From NCBI RefSeq assembly GCF_025685685.1, contig NZ_JAGSYH010000008.1, forward strand, positions 62,001 through 126,000: a stretch of DNA of 64,000 nt, written 5' to 3'. Below are positions 16,870 to 27,303 of this stretch, one piece after another (the first letter of the stretch is position 1; each line of letters begins with the position of its first letter). Source of the DNA: Acidicapsa dinghuensis (GTDB lineage Bacteria > Acidobacteriota > Terriglobia > Terriglobales > Acidobacteriaceae). A program made the translations under genes and the position numbers. The notes beneath the pieces are model-generated. The model did not search any database and had not been told where the DNA came from. It worked only from the letters and a program-made list of their open reading frames with translations.

Positions 16870-17198
16870 CCGTGCCTCTTTCCTGATTAATTCGGTTTTC
16901 GCGTGTGCAGAGTCACGGCTTGGATTAAGACCCATATTCCTGCAAGGAAATAGATTCCGTATAGGTATACGGGCCTATTCATACCATGGTCAAGACGATT
17001 CAAAAGCGCCACCTGCCTATCTGACTGGAGCATTGCCTGCTGACGGGAAGAGACGAGCTTCAATTGACGCTCTCGCCTCATACGCAAGTCAGTTCAATAT
17101 TTGTATAAGAAATTATTTCCCTATTGCTTTTTCAGTTATTCTTGATTAGTACACTGGACAAGATCAAGACTGCGCGTAACAGGCAAGGGGGAATCAAA
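16870..17198. promoter_or_regulatory. divergent intergenic region of the rhamnose genes
   Basis: 329 bases between the rhamnosidase (minus) and rhaEW (plus). It is AT-richer than its surroundings towards rhaEW (17095-17160). It contains two inverted repeats: TTCCT-GCA-AGGAA at 16937-16949, and the 16-base palindrome listed separately at 16957-16972. I see no open frame with a credible start, and I cannot place promoter hexamers with confidence. Confidence 0.5.
16957..16972. promoter_or_regulatory. palindromic candidate operator for rhamnose genes
   Basis: CCGTATA-GG-TATACGG, perfect seven-base arms with a two-base centre, lies about 88 bases upstream of the rhamnosidase start and 227 bases upstream of rhaEW. 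The size and symmetry fit a dimeric repressor such as a LacI or GntR protein. No regulator gene is nearby, so the binding protein is unknown. Confidence 0.5.
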
Positions 17199-19442
17199 AT
17201 GGCTGTCGCTGAAGTTGCTTCAACACTGAAATATCTGGAAGACCGCTGGGACGATGCGGTAGCCGCCACTCTCGATGAACCGGAGCTACTGCGTTATCGG
17301 TCAAACCTGCTTGGTTCAGATCTGCGGATTACCAATTTCGCAGGCGGCAATACAAGTTCGAAGATTCGCGAGACAGATCCTCTGACCGGCGAAGCAGTAG
17401 AAGTGATTTGGGTCAAAGGCAGCGGTGGCGACCTCGGGGGCATCAAGCGCGGTGGATTTGCAACTTTATATCTGAACAAACTACTGGCGTTCGAAGCGCA
17501 ATATCGAGGGGTCGAGTTTGAAGATGAAGTAGTAGCTCTTTACCCGCTGGCCGCCTTTCGCGCCAATCCCGTAGCCGCCTCGATCGATACCCCACTCCAT
17601 GGTTTCCTTCCCTTCCCGCACGTGGATCACCTGCATCCCGACTGGGGCATTGCACTGGCTGCCGCCGCGAACGGCAAGGAAAAGATGGCGGAGTTTAATC
17701 GCGAATTTAACCACAAGCTAGTCTGGATCCCATGGCAGCGGCCCGGATTTGAACTTGCAATGATGATGAAGCGGGCCGTCGTGGAAAACCCCGGATGCGA
17801 TGGCATTGTTCTCGGTGGACACGGCCTTTTCACATGGGGTCAGACGCAGCGCGAATGCTACCTGAACACCATCACGGTCATCGATCAGCTTGGCCAGTTC
17901 ATCAACACGCATGCGATTAAAGTCGGTAGCGCAATGTTTGGCGGCCAGACTGTTGAAGTACGTGAAGACAGGCACGCCGTAGCGACCGCGATTCTGCCCT
18001 ATCTGCGCGGATGTCTGGGCGCACATCGGCGATCGATTGCCAGCTATTCGGATGCGGAAGATGTGCTCGGCTTCGTGAACTCAAAGCTGGCTCAAAATAT
18101 GGCGTATCTTGGCACAAGCTGTCCGGACCATTTCATCCGCACTAAGATTCGCCCCATGTTTGTGCCGTGGAACCCGCAGGCCAACAGCACTGACAACGGG
18201 GTCGCCGCGTTAAAACAGCAGATCTCCGAATCGTTGCACACGTATCGCGCTGAATATGCGGAGTACTACAAGAAGCACGCCGTTGCTGACTCGCCCGCAA
18301 TGCGCGATCCAAGCCCTAGCGTAGTGCTGATTCCCGGCATCGGCATGTTCAGCTTTGGTAAGAACAAGACCGAGGCGCGCATCGTCGGCGAGTTCTATAC
18401 GAACGCCATTCATGTGATGGAGGGGGCAAGCGCCCTTGGTTACGGGTCAACCGAGATCAAGTCAGGTGACGACATGCCGCAGGCTGGACCGGCAGCGCCC
18501 AGTTCCGCGTTCTCCGTATGTAGCAACTATGTCGCACTGCCGCCATTGGAAGCTTTTCGCATCGAGTACTGGTTGCTGGAAGAAGCGAAGATTCGCAGGC
18601 AGCCTCCGGAAAAAGAGCTTAGCCGCAAGATCGCACTCGTAGTTGGCGGTGGAAGCGGGATTGGCCGCGAAGTTGCGCGCATAGCTGCAGAACGCGGAGC
18701 CCACGTCATGGTGGCTGATCGCGATACTGCCGGAGCCGAACGAGTCGCCGGCGAGTTGAAGAAGATTGCGCATCCTGAATTCGCTGGCTGGACGGGCGTT
18801 GATATCTGCGACCGTGCCACGATTCGCAAAGCGCTCGAAGCCACAATCGCCGCATTCGGCGGCATCGATCTGCTGATTAACACAGCAGCGATCTTTCCTT
18901 CTTCGCCTGACGGAGTAGTTTCAGACGCAATGTGGACCACGACTCTTGATGTCAATGTGAAGGCAAATTATCTTCTCGCGGATGAAGCAGAGAAAATCTT
19001 TAAAGATCAGGATCTGGACGGCGCGGTTGTACTTACGAGCTCGGCCAATGCGGTTGTATCCAAGCGCGGCAGCGAAGCGTATGACGTAAGCAAGGCAGCG
19101 TTGAGCCATCTGGTGCGAGAGCTTGCAATTAGCCTTGCGCCGAAGGTCCGCGTAAATGGTATCAGTCCAGCAACTGTGGTGAAGGGATCGACGATGTTTC
19201 CGCGCGACCGCGTGCGGGCTTCGCTGACCAAGTACAACATCGCATTTGACGATTCGATGAGTGACGATGAACTGCGCAATCTGCTGGCGAAGTTTTATGC
19301 CAAGCGCACGCTGACTCATCAACCGATTGAGCCAGTGGATTGCGCCGAAGCGATACTCTTTCTTGCCGGAGAAAAGACACGCTGCACCTCAGGACATCTC
19401 ATTCCCGTAGATGGCGGCTTGCCTGAGGCTTTTCTTCGATGA
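17199..19442 (+). CDS. rhaEW: bifunctional rhamnulose-1-phosphate aldolase / L-lactaldehyde dehydrogenase
   Basis: 747 residues, a fusion. Residues about 1-420 are a class II (zinc) aldolase with DLGGIKRGGFATLYL, FPHVDHLHPDW (metal His) and VLGGHGLFTWG. Residues about 430-747 are a short-chain dehydrogenase: VVGGGSGIGREVARIAAERG (NAD-binding), INTAAIFPSS, the catalytic SSANAVVSKRGSEAYDVSKAAL (Ser, Tyr-x3-Lys) and GHLIPVDGG. It splits L-rhamnulose-1-phosphate into DHAP and L-lactaldehyde and oxidises the latter to lactate, as described for RhaEW of other bacteria. ATG 17199 follows AAGGGGGA. It overlaps rhaB by four bases. Confidence 0.93.
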   Translation: MAVAEVASTLKYLEDRWDDAVAATLDEPELLRYRSNLLGSDLRITNFAGGNTSSKIRETDPLTGEAVEVIWVKGSGGDLGGIKRGGFATLYLNKLLAFEAQYRGVEFEDEVVALYPLAAFRANPVAASIDTPLHGFLPFPHVDHLHPDWGIALAAAANGKEKMAEFNREFNHKLVWIPWQRPGFELAMMMKRAVVENPGCDGIVLGGHGLFTWGQTQRECYLNTITVIDQLGQFINTHAIKVGSAMFGGQTVEVREDRHAVATAILPYLRGCLGAHRRSIASYSDAEDVLGFVNSKLAQNMAYLGTSCPDHFIRTKIRPMFVPWNPQANSTDNGVAALKQQISESLHTYRAEYAEYYKKHAVADSPAMRDPSPSVVLIPGIGMFSFGKNKTEARIVGEFYTNAIHVMEGASALGYGSTEIKSGDDMPQAGPAAPSSAFSVCSNYVALPPLEAFRIEYWLLEEAKIRRQPPEKELSRKIALVVGGGSGIGREVARIAAERGAHVMVADRDTAGAERVAGELKKIAHPEFAGWTGVDICDRATIRKALEATIAAFGGIDLLINTAAIFPSSPDGVVSDAMWTTTLDVNVKANYLLADEAEKIFKDQDLDGAVVLTSSANAVVSKRGSEAYDVSKAALSHLVRELAISLAPKVRVNGISPATVVKGSTMFPRDRVRASLTKYNIAFDDSMSDDELRNLLAKFYAKRTLTHQPIEPVDCAEAILFLAGEKTRCTSGHLIPVDGGLPEAFLR

Positions 19443-20896
19443 GCAACGAGGCTACGAGCTTCGACAAGCGAGCACACGTTGCAATCGATCTTGGAGCTGA
19501 AAGCTGTCGGGTTTCTCTGCTGCAATGGCGCAATGAGGAACCTGAAGTCACGATGCTGCATCGCGTGCCTAATGGCCCTGTGGAAGATATCGGCCATCTT
19601 TACTGGCCACTGAACAGAATTCTTTCCGGTGTCGAAGAGGGGTTACGCAAAGCGGCAGACGCTGCTCCGGAAGGAATTGCATCGATCGGCGTCGACGGTT
19701 GGGCCGTAGACTATGTTCGTTTGAGTGAAGATGGCAAACCAGTATCGGCGCCATTTTGCTATCGCGATGAACGCACCGTGAGCGCGAAAACTGAGGCTGA
19801 AACACGAGTCAACGCTGGAGAGATGTTTCGCCGCACCGGGGCTCAGCCTCTTCGTATCAACACCGCCTATCAGCTTATAGCGGATCTATTGGCCGGCAAC
19901 GAGAGAGAGACGCCCTGGGTTTTGCTGCCGGAATATGTGCTGCACTGGCTCGGTGGCAGACGTGTTGCGGAATACACCAATGCCACACACACCGGTCTCG
20001 TAAATGTGGAAAGCGGCGATTGGTGCGAGCGGACAATCGAGCTGCTTGGACTTTCTCTCGCTGCGGTGCCTGAAATCGTTCCATCCGGTTCAGTTGTTGG
20101 CAAGCTCTCTGGAGCGCTCACTTCCCTGCCCGCATTCGCAAGCACAGAATTGATTGCCCCGGCCTGCCATGATACGGCTTCAGCTATCGCCTCAATTGAT
20201 GAACCGATAGAGCACACTGCCTATATCGTGAGTGGAACCTGGTCGCTGGTGGGAACGGTCATTGAAAAACCTGTGTGCTCAACCGAAGCTCAGCAAGCAG
20301 GATTTACCAATCAGGGTGCGGTATCTGGCGGATATTGTTTTCATCGCAATGTGAATGGCATGTGGATGCTGAAACAGTGTATGGAGCATTGGGCTGCCGA
20401 AGGACGCGTGCTGGATATCGCGGAATTGATTGCGCAGGCTGGCAACGTCGATCCGATTCCTGGCCTAATTGATGTGGATCTGCCTGAACTGCTGCTGGCA
20501 GGCAATATGTCTGCGCGCATCAATGAAGCTCTGCGGCTTGCAGGCTCAAACACTATTGACGATTCGGCGGGACATGAACCCATCTTTGCACGCGTCATTT
20601 TCGCAAGCCTCGCACATGGCTACGCCAACACATTGCGCAATCTCGAGTCGCTGACTGGACGCACATTTGAGCAGATCATGATCCTCGGCGGCGGAAGCAG
20701 AAATGCGCTGTTGCGAAAACTAACCGAAAAGAGCACTGGGCTACCAGTGATTTGCGGGGAAGTTGAAGGATCCACGATCGGCAATTTCGCAGTGCAGCTT
20801 GCAACACGCGAAGCGCAGCCCGGCACTCCTGGCTTTGCTGGGAGTGTTCGCCGATGGGCTCATCGTCTGGGATCACATAAGGAAGCTTGCGCTTAA
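19439..20896 (+). CDS. rhaB: L-rhamnulokinase
   Basis: 485 residues, close to the 489 of E. coli RhaB. FGGY-type sugar kinase: VAIDLGAESCRVSLLQW (phosphate 1), GVDGWAVDYVRL, ACHDTASAIASI, SGTWSLVGT (phosphate 2) and ILGGGSRNALLRKLTE (adenosine). It phosphorylates L-rhamnulose to the 1-phosphate used by RhaEW. The ATGA overlap with the upstream gene indicates translational coupling. The isomerase that makes L-rhamnulose (RhaA or RhaI) is not in this window. Confidence 0.95.
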   Translation: MSNEATSFDKRAHVAIDLGAESCRVSLLQWRNEEPEVTMLHRVPNGPVEDIGHLYWPLNRILSGVEEGLRKAADAAPEGIASIGVDGWAVDYVRLSEDGKPVSAPFCYRDERTVSAKTEAETRVNAGEMFRRTGAQPLRINTAYQLIADLLAGNERETPWVLLPEYVLHWLGGRRVAEYTNATHTGLVNVESGDWCERTIELLGLSLAAVPEIVPSGSVVGKLSGALTSLPAFASTELIAPACHDTASAIASIDEPIEHTAYIVSGTWSLVGTVIEKPVCSTEAQQAGFTNQGAVSGGYCFHRNVNGMWMLKQCMEHWAAEGRVLDIAELIAQAGNVDPIPGLIDVDLPELLLAGNMSARINEALRLAGSNTIDDSAGHEPIFARVIFASLAHGYANTLRNLESLTGRTFEQIMILGGGSRNALLRKLTEKSTGLPVICGEVEGSTIGNFAVQLATREAQPGTPGFAGSVRRWAHRLGSHKEACA

Positions 20897-21653: not shown

Positions 21654-21742
21654 ACAGGTCTGATCGAATCCCGGGAGACAACGCAGCTCGGTGCACGGTG
21701 CTTGACTGACTTCCCGCGGCTCTGGTCTACTGGCTATAAGTT

Positions 21743-21826
21743 ATGCAGTACGTCATCATTTGCGCGATTCGAATTAGCGGCCCCAATTTGTTGCTGGGCG
21801 TGCGCGGGAGACGCTGCCAGAAATAG
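21743..21826 (+). CDS. branched-chain amino acid leader peptide (ilv-type attenuator)
   Basis: 27-codon open frame beginning MQYVIICAIRISG and continuing with NLLLGV, ending in TAG at 21824. Nine of 27 residues are Ile, Leu or Val (codons 4-6, 9, 11, 16-18 and 20), with Ile clusters first and a Leu triplet later. It lies 78 bases before the threonine dehydratase start and is followed by a terminator hairpin. This is the classical layout of ribosome-mediated attenuation, with stalling at Ile/Leu/Val codons favouring read-through into ilvA. Translation initiation is unclear: no Shine-Dalgarno sequence is seen, and the start could be very close to the 5' end of the RNA. Confidence 0.6.
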   Translation: MQYVIICAIRISGPNLLLGVRGRRCQK

Positions 21827-21885
21827 CAGAAATCAAATCTGATTGAAGGAAACAGACCACCTCCCGCAGATGCGGCGGTGGTTTT
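21804..21885 (+). promoter_or_regulatory. transcription attenuator of ilvA (antiterminator and terminator)
   Basis: The terminator has arms ACCACC (21856-21861) and GGTGGT (21877-21882), an inner stem CCGC / GCGG (21864-21867, 21872-21875), and then TTTTCTT. The segment GCGGGAG at 21804-21810, within the leader-peptide frame, is perfectly complementary to CTCCCGC at 21861-21867, which is part of the terminator's 5' arm. Pairing of the two would prevent terminator formation. This mutually exclusive pairing is the hallmark of an attenuator. The structure is read directly from the sequence; the regulation is inferred. Confidence 0.6.
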
Positions 21886-21904
21886 CTTGCGTTAGGAGCA
21901 AATT

Positions 21905-23119
21905 TTGGAATCGGTCACACTTGGCACGATTGAAGCAGCACGTGAACGTATCGGCGAAGCCATTCACCTTTCGCCCTGTCAGCTCTCCCATCACCTCACG
22001 GAGCGAATTGGCCTGCCAATTTATCTGAAGCTTGAAAATCTGCAACGCACCGGCTCGTTCAAAGAGCGGGGCGCACTGAATAAGTTGCTCACGTTGAGCG
22101 AGGAAGAGCGGGCTCGCGGCGTGATCGCTGCCTCGGCCGGTAATCACGCGCAGGGAGTGGCATTTCACGCGAACCGGCTCGGAATGCGCGCACAGATCGT
22201 GATGCCCCAGGCGACCCCTCTGGTCAAAGTGGTTTCAACTCGCGGATTCGGTGCGGAAGTCATTCTGCACGGAGCCAACTACGACGAGGCCTGCGAAGAA
22301 GCCTTGAAGCGATGCGAAGAACAGGGATTGACATTCATCCATCCTTTCGATGATCCAGTGGTTATCTCCGGCCAGGGAACCATTGGGCTTGAATTACTGG
22401 AGCAGATTCCAGATCTCGAAGCGGTAGTTGTACCCATCGGAGGCGGAGGGCTGATCGGCGGTATTGCTTGTGCTTTGAAAGAGCAGACTCCGCGAATTCA
22501 AGTGGTCGGAGTGGAGCCCGAGAAGCTGCCATCCATGCTGCGCGCGCGCGAAGCAGGTGAACCGATTACACTCGCGCCGCAGGCCACTATCGCGGACGGT
22601 ATCGCCGTGCGCAGAGCGGGAGACGTTACGCTACCGCTGGTTTCGCGCTATGTCGACGAGATTGTGACAGTGGATGATGAAGAGATCGCCAGTGCGATTC
22701 TGATGCTGCTGGAGCAGGAAAAAACCCTGGCCGAGGGAGCCGGAGCTGCCGCGTTGGCTGCGCTTCTGCAGGATAAGACGCGTCTTCGCAATCGGCGCAC
22801 CGCAGTTTTAGTCTGTGGTGGAAACATTGATGTAACGTTGCTGGCAAAGATCATTGCCCGCGGTCTCGTAAAAGATGGAAGATTGCTGAGAATCCGGGTT
22901 TATCTACTGGACCGGCCGGGCGCATTGCTGCAACTCACTGAGGTGCTGGCGCGCGAGCGGGCAAACATCGTGGAAACAGTCCATAACCGCGCTTACTACG
23001 GGGTCAGCCTGGGAGAGACTGTGATCGATGTGACGATTGAAACTCGTGGCGCCGCCCATATCACTGCCATCAGTCACGCACTGGCCGAGGCATATTTCCG
23101 ATTCGAACGAATTATGTAA
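21905..23119 (+). CDS. ilvA: threonine dehydratase (threonine ammonia-lyase) with ACT domain
   Basis: 404 residues. A PLP-dependent fold-type II domain comes first: Schiff-base lysine in TGSFKERGALNK (about residue 53), AASAGNHAQGVAFHA, and the glycine loop PIGGGGLIGGIA. A C-terminal ACT domain occupies about residues 325-404 (RIRVYLLDRPGALLQLTEVL). It makes 2-oxobutyrate, the first step of isoleucine synthesis. The start is TTG at 21905, supported by TTAGGAG six bases upstream. The ACT domain suggests allosteric control, and the upstream leader/attenuator suggests transcriptional control by branched-chain amino acid supply. Confidence 0.93.
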   Translation: MESVTLGTIEAARERIGEAIHLSPCQLSHHLTERIGLPIYLKLENLQRTGSFKERGALNKLLTLSEEERARGVIAASAGNHAQGVAFHANRLGMRAQIVMPQATPLVKVVSTRGFGAEVILHGANYDEACEEALKRCEEQGLTFIHPFDDPVVISGQGTIGLELLEQIPDLEAVVVPIGGGGLIGGIACALKEQTPRIQVVGVEPEKLPSMLRAREAGEPITLAPQATIADGIAVRRAGDVTLPLVSRYVDEIVTVDDEEIASAILMLLEQEKTLAEGAGAAALAALLQDKTRLRNRRTAVLVCGGNIDVTLLAKIIARGLVKDGRLLRIRVYLLDRPGALLQLTEVLARERANIVETVHNRAYYGVSLGETVIDVTIETRGAAHITAISHALAEAYFRFERIM

Positions 23120-23172: not shown

Positions 23173-23511
23173 ATGATTGCTCGGGTATGGCATGGCGTGA
23201 CGAGCCTTGAACATGCAGATGCGTACGAGAATGAACTCAAGCCGGAACTATTACCAGGAATTAGTGCTGTCCCAGGGTATCGTGGCAGTTATCTTTTGCG
23301 TCGCCCAGTAGGAGACGAAGTCGAGTTCATTACGATTGTGCTTTTCGACTCTCTGAACCACATTCGCGCCGTGGCAGGCGAAGATTATGAAAACGCAATT
23401 GTGCCGGATATTCGACGTAAATATCTGCTGCGGTGGGATGAAAAAGCCAAACATTATGAGGTATCTGCCACTCACGGGCTGCAGGCTGGACTCGGTCTTA
23501 TCGGAAGTTGA
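23173..23511 (+). CDS. antibiotic-biosynthesis-monooxygenase-like (ABM) domain protein
   Basis: 112 residues, a single dimeric ferredoxin-like alpha/beta domain: MIARVWHGVTSLEHADAYE, then VPGYRGSYLLRRPVGDEVEFITIVLFDSLNHIRAVAGEDYE. This is the usual form of small ABM-fold proteins, many without proven activity. GGGGGTGAAGA lies just before ATG 23173. It is followed closely by the paiB-like gene. Confidence 0.75.
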   Translation: MIARVWHGVTSLEHADAYENELKPELLPGISAVPGYRGSYLLRRPVGDEVEFITIVLFDSLNHIRAVAGEDYENAIVPDIRRKYLLRWDEKAKHYEVSATHGLQAGLGLIGS

Positions 23512-23531: not shown

Positions 23532-24176
23532 ATGTATATCCCGAAGTTTAACGAGGTCACGAACCGCGGCATACTGATCGAAGCCATGAAAACGTGGCCC
23601 TTCGCCACGCTCTTCGGGCCGGATGAGAATGGACAACCAACCGCAACCCATCTTCCGCTCGTTGTGCTCGATGAGGGGGTTCACGGCGTACTCGAAGGGC
23701 ATTTCGCAAAGGCAAACTCGCACTGGAAAGGGCTTGTTGGCCGCGAGACGCTTGTGGTTTTCTCAGGCCCACATAGCTATGTCTCGCCCTCGTTGTACGT
23801 TGAACGAAAATCGGTCCCTACCTGGAACTACATAGCAGTGCATGCCTACGGCAAGCTCCGGATAGTCGGGGATACAGACACAGACTTACCCGACGATTTT
23901 GCAACGAAAGACGCTCTTCTCAAGCGATTGATTGCTATACATGAACCAGCCTACGCGGCCCAATGGAGCGAACTTCCAGAAAGCTATCGCACGGGGATGC
24001 TACGCGGCATCGTCGGCTTTCACATTGAAATTGAGCGGATCGAAGGCAAGTTCAAGCTAAGCCAGAATCGCCCCGAAGAGGACCGGCAAAATGTCTATGT
24101 CGCTCATCGTGCCGGCGATCTATCACAAAAGGAGCTCGCGGACTGGATGCGGCGTTTGATACCCCGACTCGAATAG
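23532..24176 (+). CDS. paiB: PaiB-family FMN-binding protein
   Basis: 214 residues, matching the PaiB/FMN-binding family: it begins MYIPKFNEV, then FATLFGPDENGQPTATHLPLVV, GHFAKANSHWK, FSGPHSYVSPSLY, VPTWNYIAVHAYGK and a C-terminal FKLSQNRPEEDRQNV. B. subtilis PaiB is named a negative transcriptional regulator, but the fold is that of split-barrel FMN proteins. No PaiA is adjacent, although a GNAT acetyltransferase gene follows 48 bases downstream; PaiA itself is a GNAT, so that pairing is suggestive. Confidence 0.88.
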   Translation: MYIPKFNEVTNRGILIEAMKTWPFATLFGPDENGQPTATHLPLVVLDEGVHGVLEGHFAKANSHWKGLVGRETLVVFSGPHSYVSPSLYVERKSVPTWNYIAVHAYGKLRIVGDTDTDLPDDFATKDALLKRLIAIHEPAYAAQWSELPESYRTGMLRGIVGFHIEIERIEGKFKLSQNRPEEDRQNVYVAHRAGDLSQKELADWMRRLIPRLE

Positions 24177-27218: not shown

Positions 27219-27303
27219 GCGGAGGTGGCGAAATTGGCAGACGCACAAGCTTGAGGTGCTTGCGCCGCAAGGCATAGGGGTTCAAGTCCCCTCCTCCGCA
27301 CCA
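27219..27303 (+). tRNA. tRNA-Leu (anticodon GAG)
   Basis: 85 bases including an encoded 3' CCA. The acceptor stem is GCGGAGG / CCTCCGC, and the D arm begins TGGCGAAATTGGCAGACGC. The anticodon stem is CAAGC / GCTTG with loop TTGAGGT (anticodon GAG). A long class II variable arm follows, then the T arm GGGGTTCAAGTCCCC. The type II structure with this anticodon makes Leu certain. secG begins 79 bases downstream. Confidence 0.97.

Follow-up and report, generated by a model that had tools for sequence, protein, structure and literature searches.

In the attenuators of Escherichia coli, the leader begins after a longer 5' untranslated region that carries a ribosome-binding site. Both the ilvL leader of the ilvXGMEDA operon and thrL are short leaders with control codons, an antiterminator strand near the leader end and a terminator 17–20 nt past the stop codon, and the thrL peptide, MKRISTT..., comes close to the RIS/RIT core of the acidobacterial leaders considered here. 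Mycobacterial polycysteine sORFs reportedly act as leaderless leader peptides (the work of Canestrari, from 2020). A leaderless attenuator peptide is also described for ilvBNC of Corynebacterium glutamicum, whose branched-chain leader IlvL (MTIIRLVVVTARRLP) is read, according to the accessible part of the report, from a transcript beginning one nucleotide 5' of the start codon (PMC11857589). For S. meliloti trpL, the available portion of the source likewise has the attenuator leader read from a transcript that begins at the start codon itself (PMC7298713).

The locus treated here, upstream of an acidobacterial ilvA gene, resembles the two E. coli leaders in layout and, in calculation, shows the same behavior with the ribosome stalled or on the stop codon, but it differs from them in its predicted near-leaderless start and its constrained CGA-AUU core. 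Moreover, ilvL serves an entire operon and has many Val and Leu residues in addition, whereas the acidobacterial leader precedes a stand-alone ilvA and is biased toward Ile only. From the C. glutamicum system it is set apart by phylum, by the gene controlled (there ilvB), by that leader's Ile/Val/Leu codons and by the three-hairpin model proposed for it; the CGA-AUU core goes unmentioned in the accessible part of that report (PMC11857589). S. meliloti trpL and the mycobacterial polycysteine sORFs concern other amino acids, genes and phyla. Among the matches listed in literature searches, which reach mostly openly accessible papers and some of those in part, no amino-acid attenuator in Acidobacteria was found. 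Hence the type of control is a known one, while an earlier description from Acidobacteria appears to be lacking, and the near-leaderless start and CGA-AUU-A core of the predicted element appear to go beyond the textbook. The ilvA leader offers a specific, testable case in several genera of the soil family Acidobacteriaceae.

We propose that the element is, very probably, an isoleucine-responsive, ribosome-mediated transcription attenuator of ilvA. The proposal rests on sequence comparison, namely a conserved frame, an Ile bias, an alternative pairing, a terminator and the position of the start codon; we infer the transcript start, the stalling of ribosomes and the response to isoleucine. Table 1 lists the features of the locus in the window, by which we mean the whole 64-kb stretch of DNA analyzed, part of a 6.17-Mb genome in 17 contigs.

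Table 1. Features of the ilvA leader region and its neighbors (window positions)
Feature	Position	Strand	Remarks
HAD-type hydrolase gene	ends 21653		same strand, upstream of leader and ilvA
Predicted -35 element, TTGACT	21702..21707	+	TTGAC recurs in relatives
Predicted extended -10 element, TGG-TCTACT	21723..21731	+	18-nt spacer after -35
Putative leader peptide gene, near-leaderless	21743..21826	+	27 codons, MQYVIICAIRISGPNLLLGVRGRRCQK, 9 I/L/V; stop codon at 21824
Candidate control codons, Ile5 and Ile6, side by side	21755..21760	+	sequence; in-frame Ile enrichment in relatives
Ile9 codon	21767-21769	+	immediately 5' of the CGAATTA core
Constrained core, CGAATTA	21770..21776	+	Arg10 and Ile11 codons and first base of Ser12
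Predicted antiterminator strand, CGCGGGAGA	21803..21811	+	within the leader frame, near its end
Predicted intrinsic terminator hairpin, GACCACCTCCCGCAGATGCGGCGGTGGTT	21855..21883	+	-17.0 kcal/mol; runs into T-run
Terminator T-run, TTTTCTT	21882..21888	+	sequence
AGGAG, probable ribosome-binding site of ilvA	21894..21898	+	sequence
ilvA, threonine ammonia-lyase	21905..23119	+	TTG start, 404 aa
Frame of 112 aa, without Pfam match	23173-23511		between ilvA and the FMN_bind_2 gene
FMN_bind_2 (PaiB-like) gene	23532..24176	+	possible further member of the controlled transcript

The preliminary description of this DNA had pointed to the 27-codon frame with its nine branched-chain residues, adjacent Ile pair and Leu triplet, to a match between leader and terminator, to the terminator with its T-run, and to a threonine dehydratase gene as the target. 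All of these are present: GCGGGAG (21804–21810) is exactly complementary to CTCCCGC (21861–21867), the duplex of the antiterminator strand with the terminator 5' arm is worth -15.8 kcal/mol, and the IlvA product scores above cut-off with both TIGR01127 (493 bits; cut-off 379) and NF005600 (510; cut-off 496). The broader suggestion of ribosome-mediated attenuation in an acidobacterium is well supported, the parts being conserved and the named organisms among the IlvA relatives being acidobacterial (Acidobacteria MAGs, Granulicella, Terriglobus and Edaphobacter).

On the proposed mechanism, RNA polymerase would start at about 21739, as judged from the promoter position, and ribosomes would load almost at the 5' end and read the 27-codon leader. 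With ample Ile-tRNA, the ribosome would reach the stop codon at 21824 and cover most of the strand at 21803–21811, such that the terminator at 21855–21883 could form and ilvA would be off. With Ile-tRNA scarce, a ribosome stalled at Ile codon 5, 6, 9 or 11 would leave that strand available for pairing with the terminator 5' arm while the 3' arm has yet to be transcribed, and polymerase would read through into ilvA.

Taken by itself, the single locus is weak evidence and does not rise beyond chance; it is the relatives that lift it well above. The high count of branched-chain codons, offered as evidence in the preliminary description, is not significant alone: judged by codon usage in 24 long frames of the window, the probability of at least nine I/L/V in 26 codons is 0.11, and that of at least four Ile in the leader is 0.059. 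The fold of 21700–21910 (211 nt) that the same description had proposed as a check has the stability expected of shuffled sequence (z -0.11), and the window's antiterminator pairing falls short of significance against dinucleotide shuffles (p = 0.085). The calculated switch is modest here, with the terminator 5' arm sequestered at 0.58 with the ribosome stalled versus 0.28 with it on the stop codon. A generic consensus scan calls neither promoter nor terminator at the window locus.

We gathered ilvA orthologues from 120 family genomes and from the genus. In the family, 71 were found at E below 1e-120, of which 69 were used (G118 and G057, whose matches start well inside the gene, were excluded), one of them fetched twice (L012 = L076). 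The 78 upstream regions scanned represent 77 distinct places, one with just 43 nt of upstream DNA (L019), and none was drawn from the core-based pattern search described below. The scan was blind to peptide sequence, combining a promoter score with a frame of 14–55 codons whose start lies 0–9 nt from the predicted transcript start, and with a terminator no more than 60 nt from the stop; reversed, complemented and reverse-complemented upstream regions served as control strands (n=234). Matches were found in 19 of the 78 regions versus 0 of the 234 control strands, related loci not being independent of one another. Every one of the 11 same-genus ilvA genes recovered is among the 19 (the threshold being E<=1e-150, at which 4 of 15 genomes of the genus had no ilvA match), and eight of those 11 leaders are exactly 27 codons long. 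Eight more regions have an in-frame CGNATTA core and a called hairpin, yet were missed by the strict scan (L013, L026, L030, L031, L060, L068, L074 and L075; the hairpin is weak in L060). About 50 of the 77 orthologues satisfy neither rule, and the element is therefore patchy in the family.

Beyond the family set, a search of the phylum matched 53 of 247 genomes, and of 28 ilvA loci scanned from it one matched, in a genome already in the family set (L312 = L038). Among 16 named ilvA loci there was likewise one match (L078, the same place as L009); a further locus, L079, has core and hairpin by eye but was missed by the scan. In the genus, the motif-blind scan found no such leader upstream of homoserine dehydrogenase (0/16), aspartate kinase (0/15), ilvB (0/14) or leuA (0/13), nor at seven IlvA paralogues of the window's own genome. 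No regulon is shown within the genus by these searches, the scan needing a near-leaderless start and being liable to miss other designs. By eye, an opposite-strand regulator-like gene seems to precede leuA in the genus (L228–L239), which suggests different control of the leu/ilv cluster. A search of the own genome with the pattern CGAATTA..GCGGG..CCCGC gave 0 matches and is uninformative, because the window's own GCGGG–CCCGC gap of 54 exceeds the allowed gap of 50.

A terminator hairpin is called in 36 of 41 core-bearing ilvA loci, the exceptions being L011, L061, L077, L259 and L261. In a swap test on these 36 loci, which took the strand between core and hairpin, native antiterminator/terminator 5' arm duplexes averaged -19.05 kcal/mol versus -16.17 kcal/mol when permuted, and 0 of 5000 permutations matched the native mean (p = 0.0002). 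Thirteen of the 36 came from a pattern that already demanded the core and a CCACC..GGTGG stem, and L051, L067, L068 at -304 and L075 at -84 had been dropped by eye beforehand as chance matches. Against dinucleotide shuffles, the pairing has z<0 in 35 of 36 loci and p<=0.05 in 21 of 36. Arm changes are matched between loci: L026, L027, L031 and L037 have CACCCGC/GCGGGTG where the window has CTCCCGC/GCGGGAG. The preliminary description had looked to relatives for a conserved leader frame and covarying stems, and the outcome is divided: the frame is conserved, and the terminator, in a gapped alignment of 19 loci, retains 206 of 209 pair cells and shows 2 of 11 pairs changed on both sides, but for the antiterminator the figures are 96 of 128 cells paired and 0 of 7 pairs so changed. 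This weak column signal appears to reflect a shift of register between clades.

The ribosome was assumed to cover 12 nt past the first base of its A-site codon; in the accessible part of one report, the footprint reaches up to 12 nt past a stop codon (PMC4833913). Over the 36 loci, the mean probability of finding the terminator 5' arm sequestered ahead of synthesis of the 3' arm comes to 0.71 with the ribosome stalled at the core versus 0.22 with it on the stop codon, the difference exceeding 0.1 in 34 of 36. The same calculation gives 0.62 and 0.79 (stalled) versus 0.00 and 0.02 (stop) for E. coli thrL and ilvL, respectively, with stall codons of our own choosing. Equilibrium folding was rejected as a test of switching: the terminator wins in most loci (median 0.99 stalled, 1.00 on stop), strong switching is seen in just 2 of 36, the L060 terminator is never favored, and the value is 1.0 in both states for thrL and ilvL too. 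Because equilibrium favors the terminator even in the E. coli controls, the switch must be kinetic. In a check for a protector hairpin, the antiterminator strand paired with the leader sequence upstream of it at -16.5 native versus -15.57 permuted (p 0.011); a CCCGC stretch at 21713–21717 lies upstream of the predicted transcript start. The stop-to-terminator spacers of the 36 leaders contain AGTTC in seven cases and GATTC in some.

The window promoter scores 18.0, versus a maximum of 12.7 among 30 shuffles; promoter and transcript start are predictions here, and the -10 goes uncalled under a stricter consensus. The leader ATG at 21743 sits 4 nt past the predicted start, a near-leaderless arrangement that would go beyond textbook attenuators, and the leader has no Shine-Dalgarno site. 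The likeness to E. coli attenuators drawn in the preliminary description accordingly holds for the alternative pairing and the stall/stop behavior, but not for the way in which translation would begin. Judged from promoter position, 36 of 40 ilvA leader loci (all but L030, L060, L061 and L074) have an in-frame ATG or GTG 0–9 nt past the predicted transcript start, and the promoter score beats all 30 of a locus's own shuffles in 30 of 40. Fifteen of these 40 loci derive from the core-based pattern, with L077 and chance matches dropped by eye. The promoter matrix was built after seeing the sequences; start-codon distance lay outside it for the 40-locus test and was a criterion in the scan of 78 regions. 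In three acidobacterial genomes, leaderless genes are estimated at 9.7 to 19.4 per cent in the accessible part of the source (PMC3160421).

The most constrained part of the leader is its core. All 18 RI[IST] sites of the motif-blind leaders use CGA-ATT, a count that relatedness inflates, and two of the 19 leaders (L022 and L255) have no such site. In the window frames CGA makes up 10.4 per cent of Arg codons and 5 of the 46 Arg codons that precede Ile. A codon choice so invariant beyond the need of the peptide could mean that CGAATTA acts as RNA, in a pause hairpin or as a protein site, and is not a control site read in translation, and the core has some complementarity to the spacer between stop and terminator (mean z -1.16). 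This core–spacer pairing proved unconvincing, since same-letter decoy 7-mers did as well in 8 of 150 cases for ilvA and 22 of 150 for the kinase leaders described below; many loci have no convincing partner, and the in-frame Ile bias persists with RI[IST] removed. We regard the RNA-element explanation as rather unlikely. For the fixed nucleotides our favored guess is a slow codon beside the sensing codon. On a more ambitious and frankly speculative version, more doubtful than not, CGA-AUU(-A) might be a ribosome pace-setter in Acidobacteriaceae: a rare and presumably slowly decoded Arg codon before the sensing codon would time the ribosome where a leader has no Shine-Dalgarno site and no clear pause hairpin, and, being shared by Ile leaders (ilvA and the FMN-binding gene) and Thr leaders (aspartate kinase), would form a modular timing part independent of the amino acid. 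With the invariant core, one can test cleanly whether the switch is tuned by a slow codon next to the sensing one.

As to the amino acid sensed, the preliminary description had read the signal as Ile/Leu/Val. An attenuator responding to several branched-chain amino acids would fit the three adjacent Leu and two Val codons of the window leader, and E. coli ilvL contains Ile, Leu and Val. Over the 19 motif-blind leaders, which have 547 residues once the first of each is left out, in-frame Ile accounts for 104, a 3.31-fold enrichment relative to window proteins that is still 2.79-fold with RI[IST] removed, versus 0.35- and 0.19-fold when the same DNA is read in its other two frames. Leu (0.52-fold), Val (0.67-fold) and Thr (0.59-fold) are below background, and the remaining 10 leaders of the genus contain no Leu triplet. 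Further, with a 12-nt footprint assumed, stalling at Leu17 or Leu18 would bring the ribosome as far as the antiterminator strand, and stalling at Leu16 not quite. Multiple branched-chain sensing is thus quite improbable: the Ile part of the earlier reading stands, and the Leu and Val parts do not. Cys is 4.05-fold enriched on 13 residues, but the other frames have still more (11.5 and 7.7), so that this excess is one of composition. Since in-frame Ile is enriched while Leu and Val are depleted, the residue sensed is, on this comparison of predicted and putatively translated leaders, isoleucine, the end product of the pathway opened by IlvA; the in-frame leader with end-product codons is present.

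It is very improbable that the hairpin simply terminates the HAD-hydrolase gene, with the short frame a product of chance and the ilvA promoter situated further downstream. Terminators 3' of same-strand genes are common, the I/L/V count and the single-sequence fold are unremarkable, as noted, and most ilvA orthologues are missing the element. Such a reading leaves unaccounted for the co-occurrence of promoter, near-leaderless frame, Ile bias and terminator in several genera (19/78 versus 0/234) and the fit of leader strand to terminator arm locus by locus; by eye, too, the sequence 5' of the promoter varies between relatives while the leader is constant. T-boxes control some ilv genes in other phyla, but a riboswitch or T-box-like RNA with an untranslated leader is scarcely credible here, given that a search of Rfam 15 found nothing at gathering threshold either here or in 16 related loci (the best weak match, Leu_leader, RF00512, reaches 14.2 bits against a threshold of 50, E 2.7) and that what the loci share is in-frame Ile bias and pairing and not a long conserved sequence.

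A core-based pattern was also run over 300 family genomes, 94 of which have a match, many plainly by chance; the reversed-pattern control matches in some genomes too. Repeat fetches of one place were removed (L160, L164, L170, L171, L173, L174, L249 and L250). This search exposed a second group of leaders, 5' of a gene for a monofunctional aspartate kinase (AA_kinase plus ACT_9, 494 aa). The group, from several genera, consists of Thr-rich leaders with core CGAATTA and matching terminators (L158, L159, L178, L187, L270–L275 and L279–L285). Over these 17, with L276–L278 omitted for want of a called terminator, Thr is 3.13-fold and Ile 1.38-fold enriched, as in MTTVSQKAMRITSMRTSTRITCLLGKGAW of L158, and the leader tails fit the terminator arm (swap test p 0.013, 17 loci). 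In 11 of the kinase leaders a second CGNATTA copy, not demanded by the search, is CGA too. This matching Thr-type leader extends the ilvA case. Many family genomes have two aspartate kinase matches. In one same-genus ilvA leader (L009 = L078) the core occurs twice (RRRITAAMRISG), with RIT and RIS versions in a single peptide.

In four further loci (L256, L257, L265 and L266), which were not counted among the ilvA loci, an Ile-type leader with its core at locus position 301 precedes not ilvA but a homologue of the FMN_bind_2 protein, at 56–59 per cent identity to the window protein. All four have the core AIRIS, an in-frame ATG close after the promoter and a CCACC..GGTGG hairpin; by eye, three have a TTGAC/TCTACT-type promoter and L265 has just a clear -10. 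The best IlvA-like matches in these four genomes, which are listed as 100 per cent complete, reach 38–40 per cent identity, and the ilvA ortholog discussed here is absent from them. In L010 and L248, an FMN_bind_2 homologue lies within a few tens of bases 3' of ilvA. The simplest reading would be that ilvA and the FMN_bind_2 gene share an attenuated transcript and that genomes without ilvA kept the attenuator in front of the second gene. Because the same leader precedes the gene in genomes that have no such ilvA, we predict an isoleucine-linked role for the FMN_bind_2 (PaiB-like) protein; the arrangement suggests, and would point to, an unsuspected isoleucine link for this protein family.

Elsewhere in the window, a bifunctional rhamnulose-1-phosphate aldolase/short-chain dehydrogenase gene (17124–20896) lies upstream of the HAD hydrolase and ilvA, adjoined by a rhamnulokinase-like gene that scores under the rhamnulokinase cut-off. 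The sole Rfam match in the window at gathering threshold is a tRNA gene at 27219–27300 on the + strand (RF00005, 53.5 bits).
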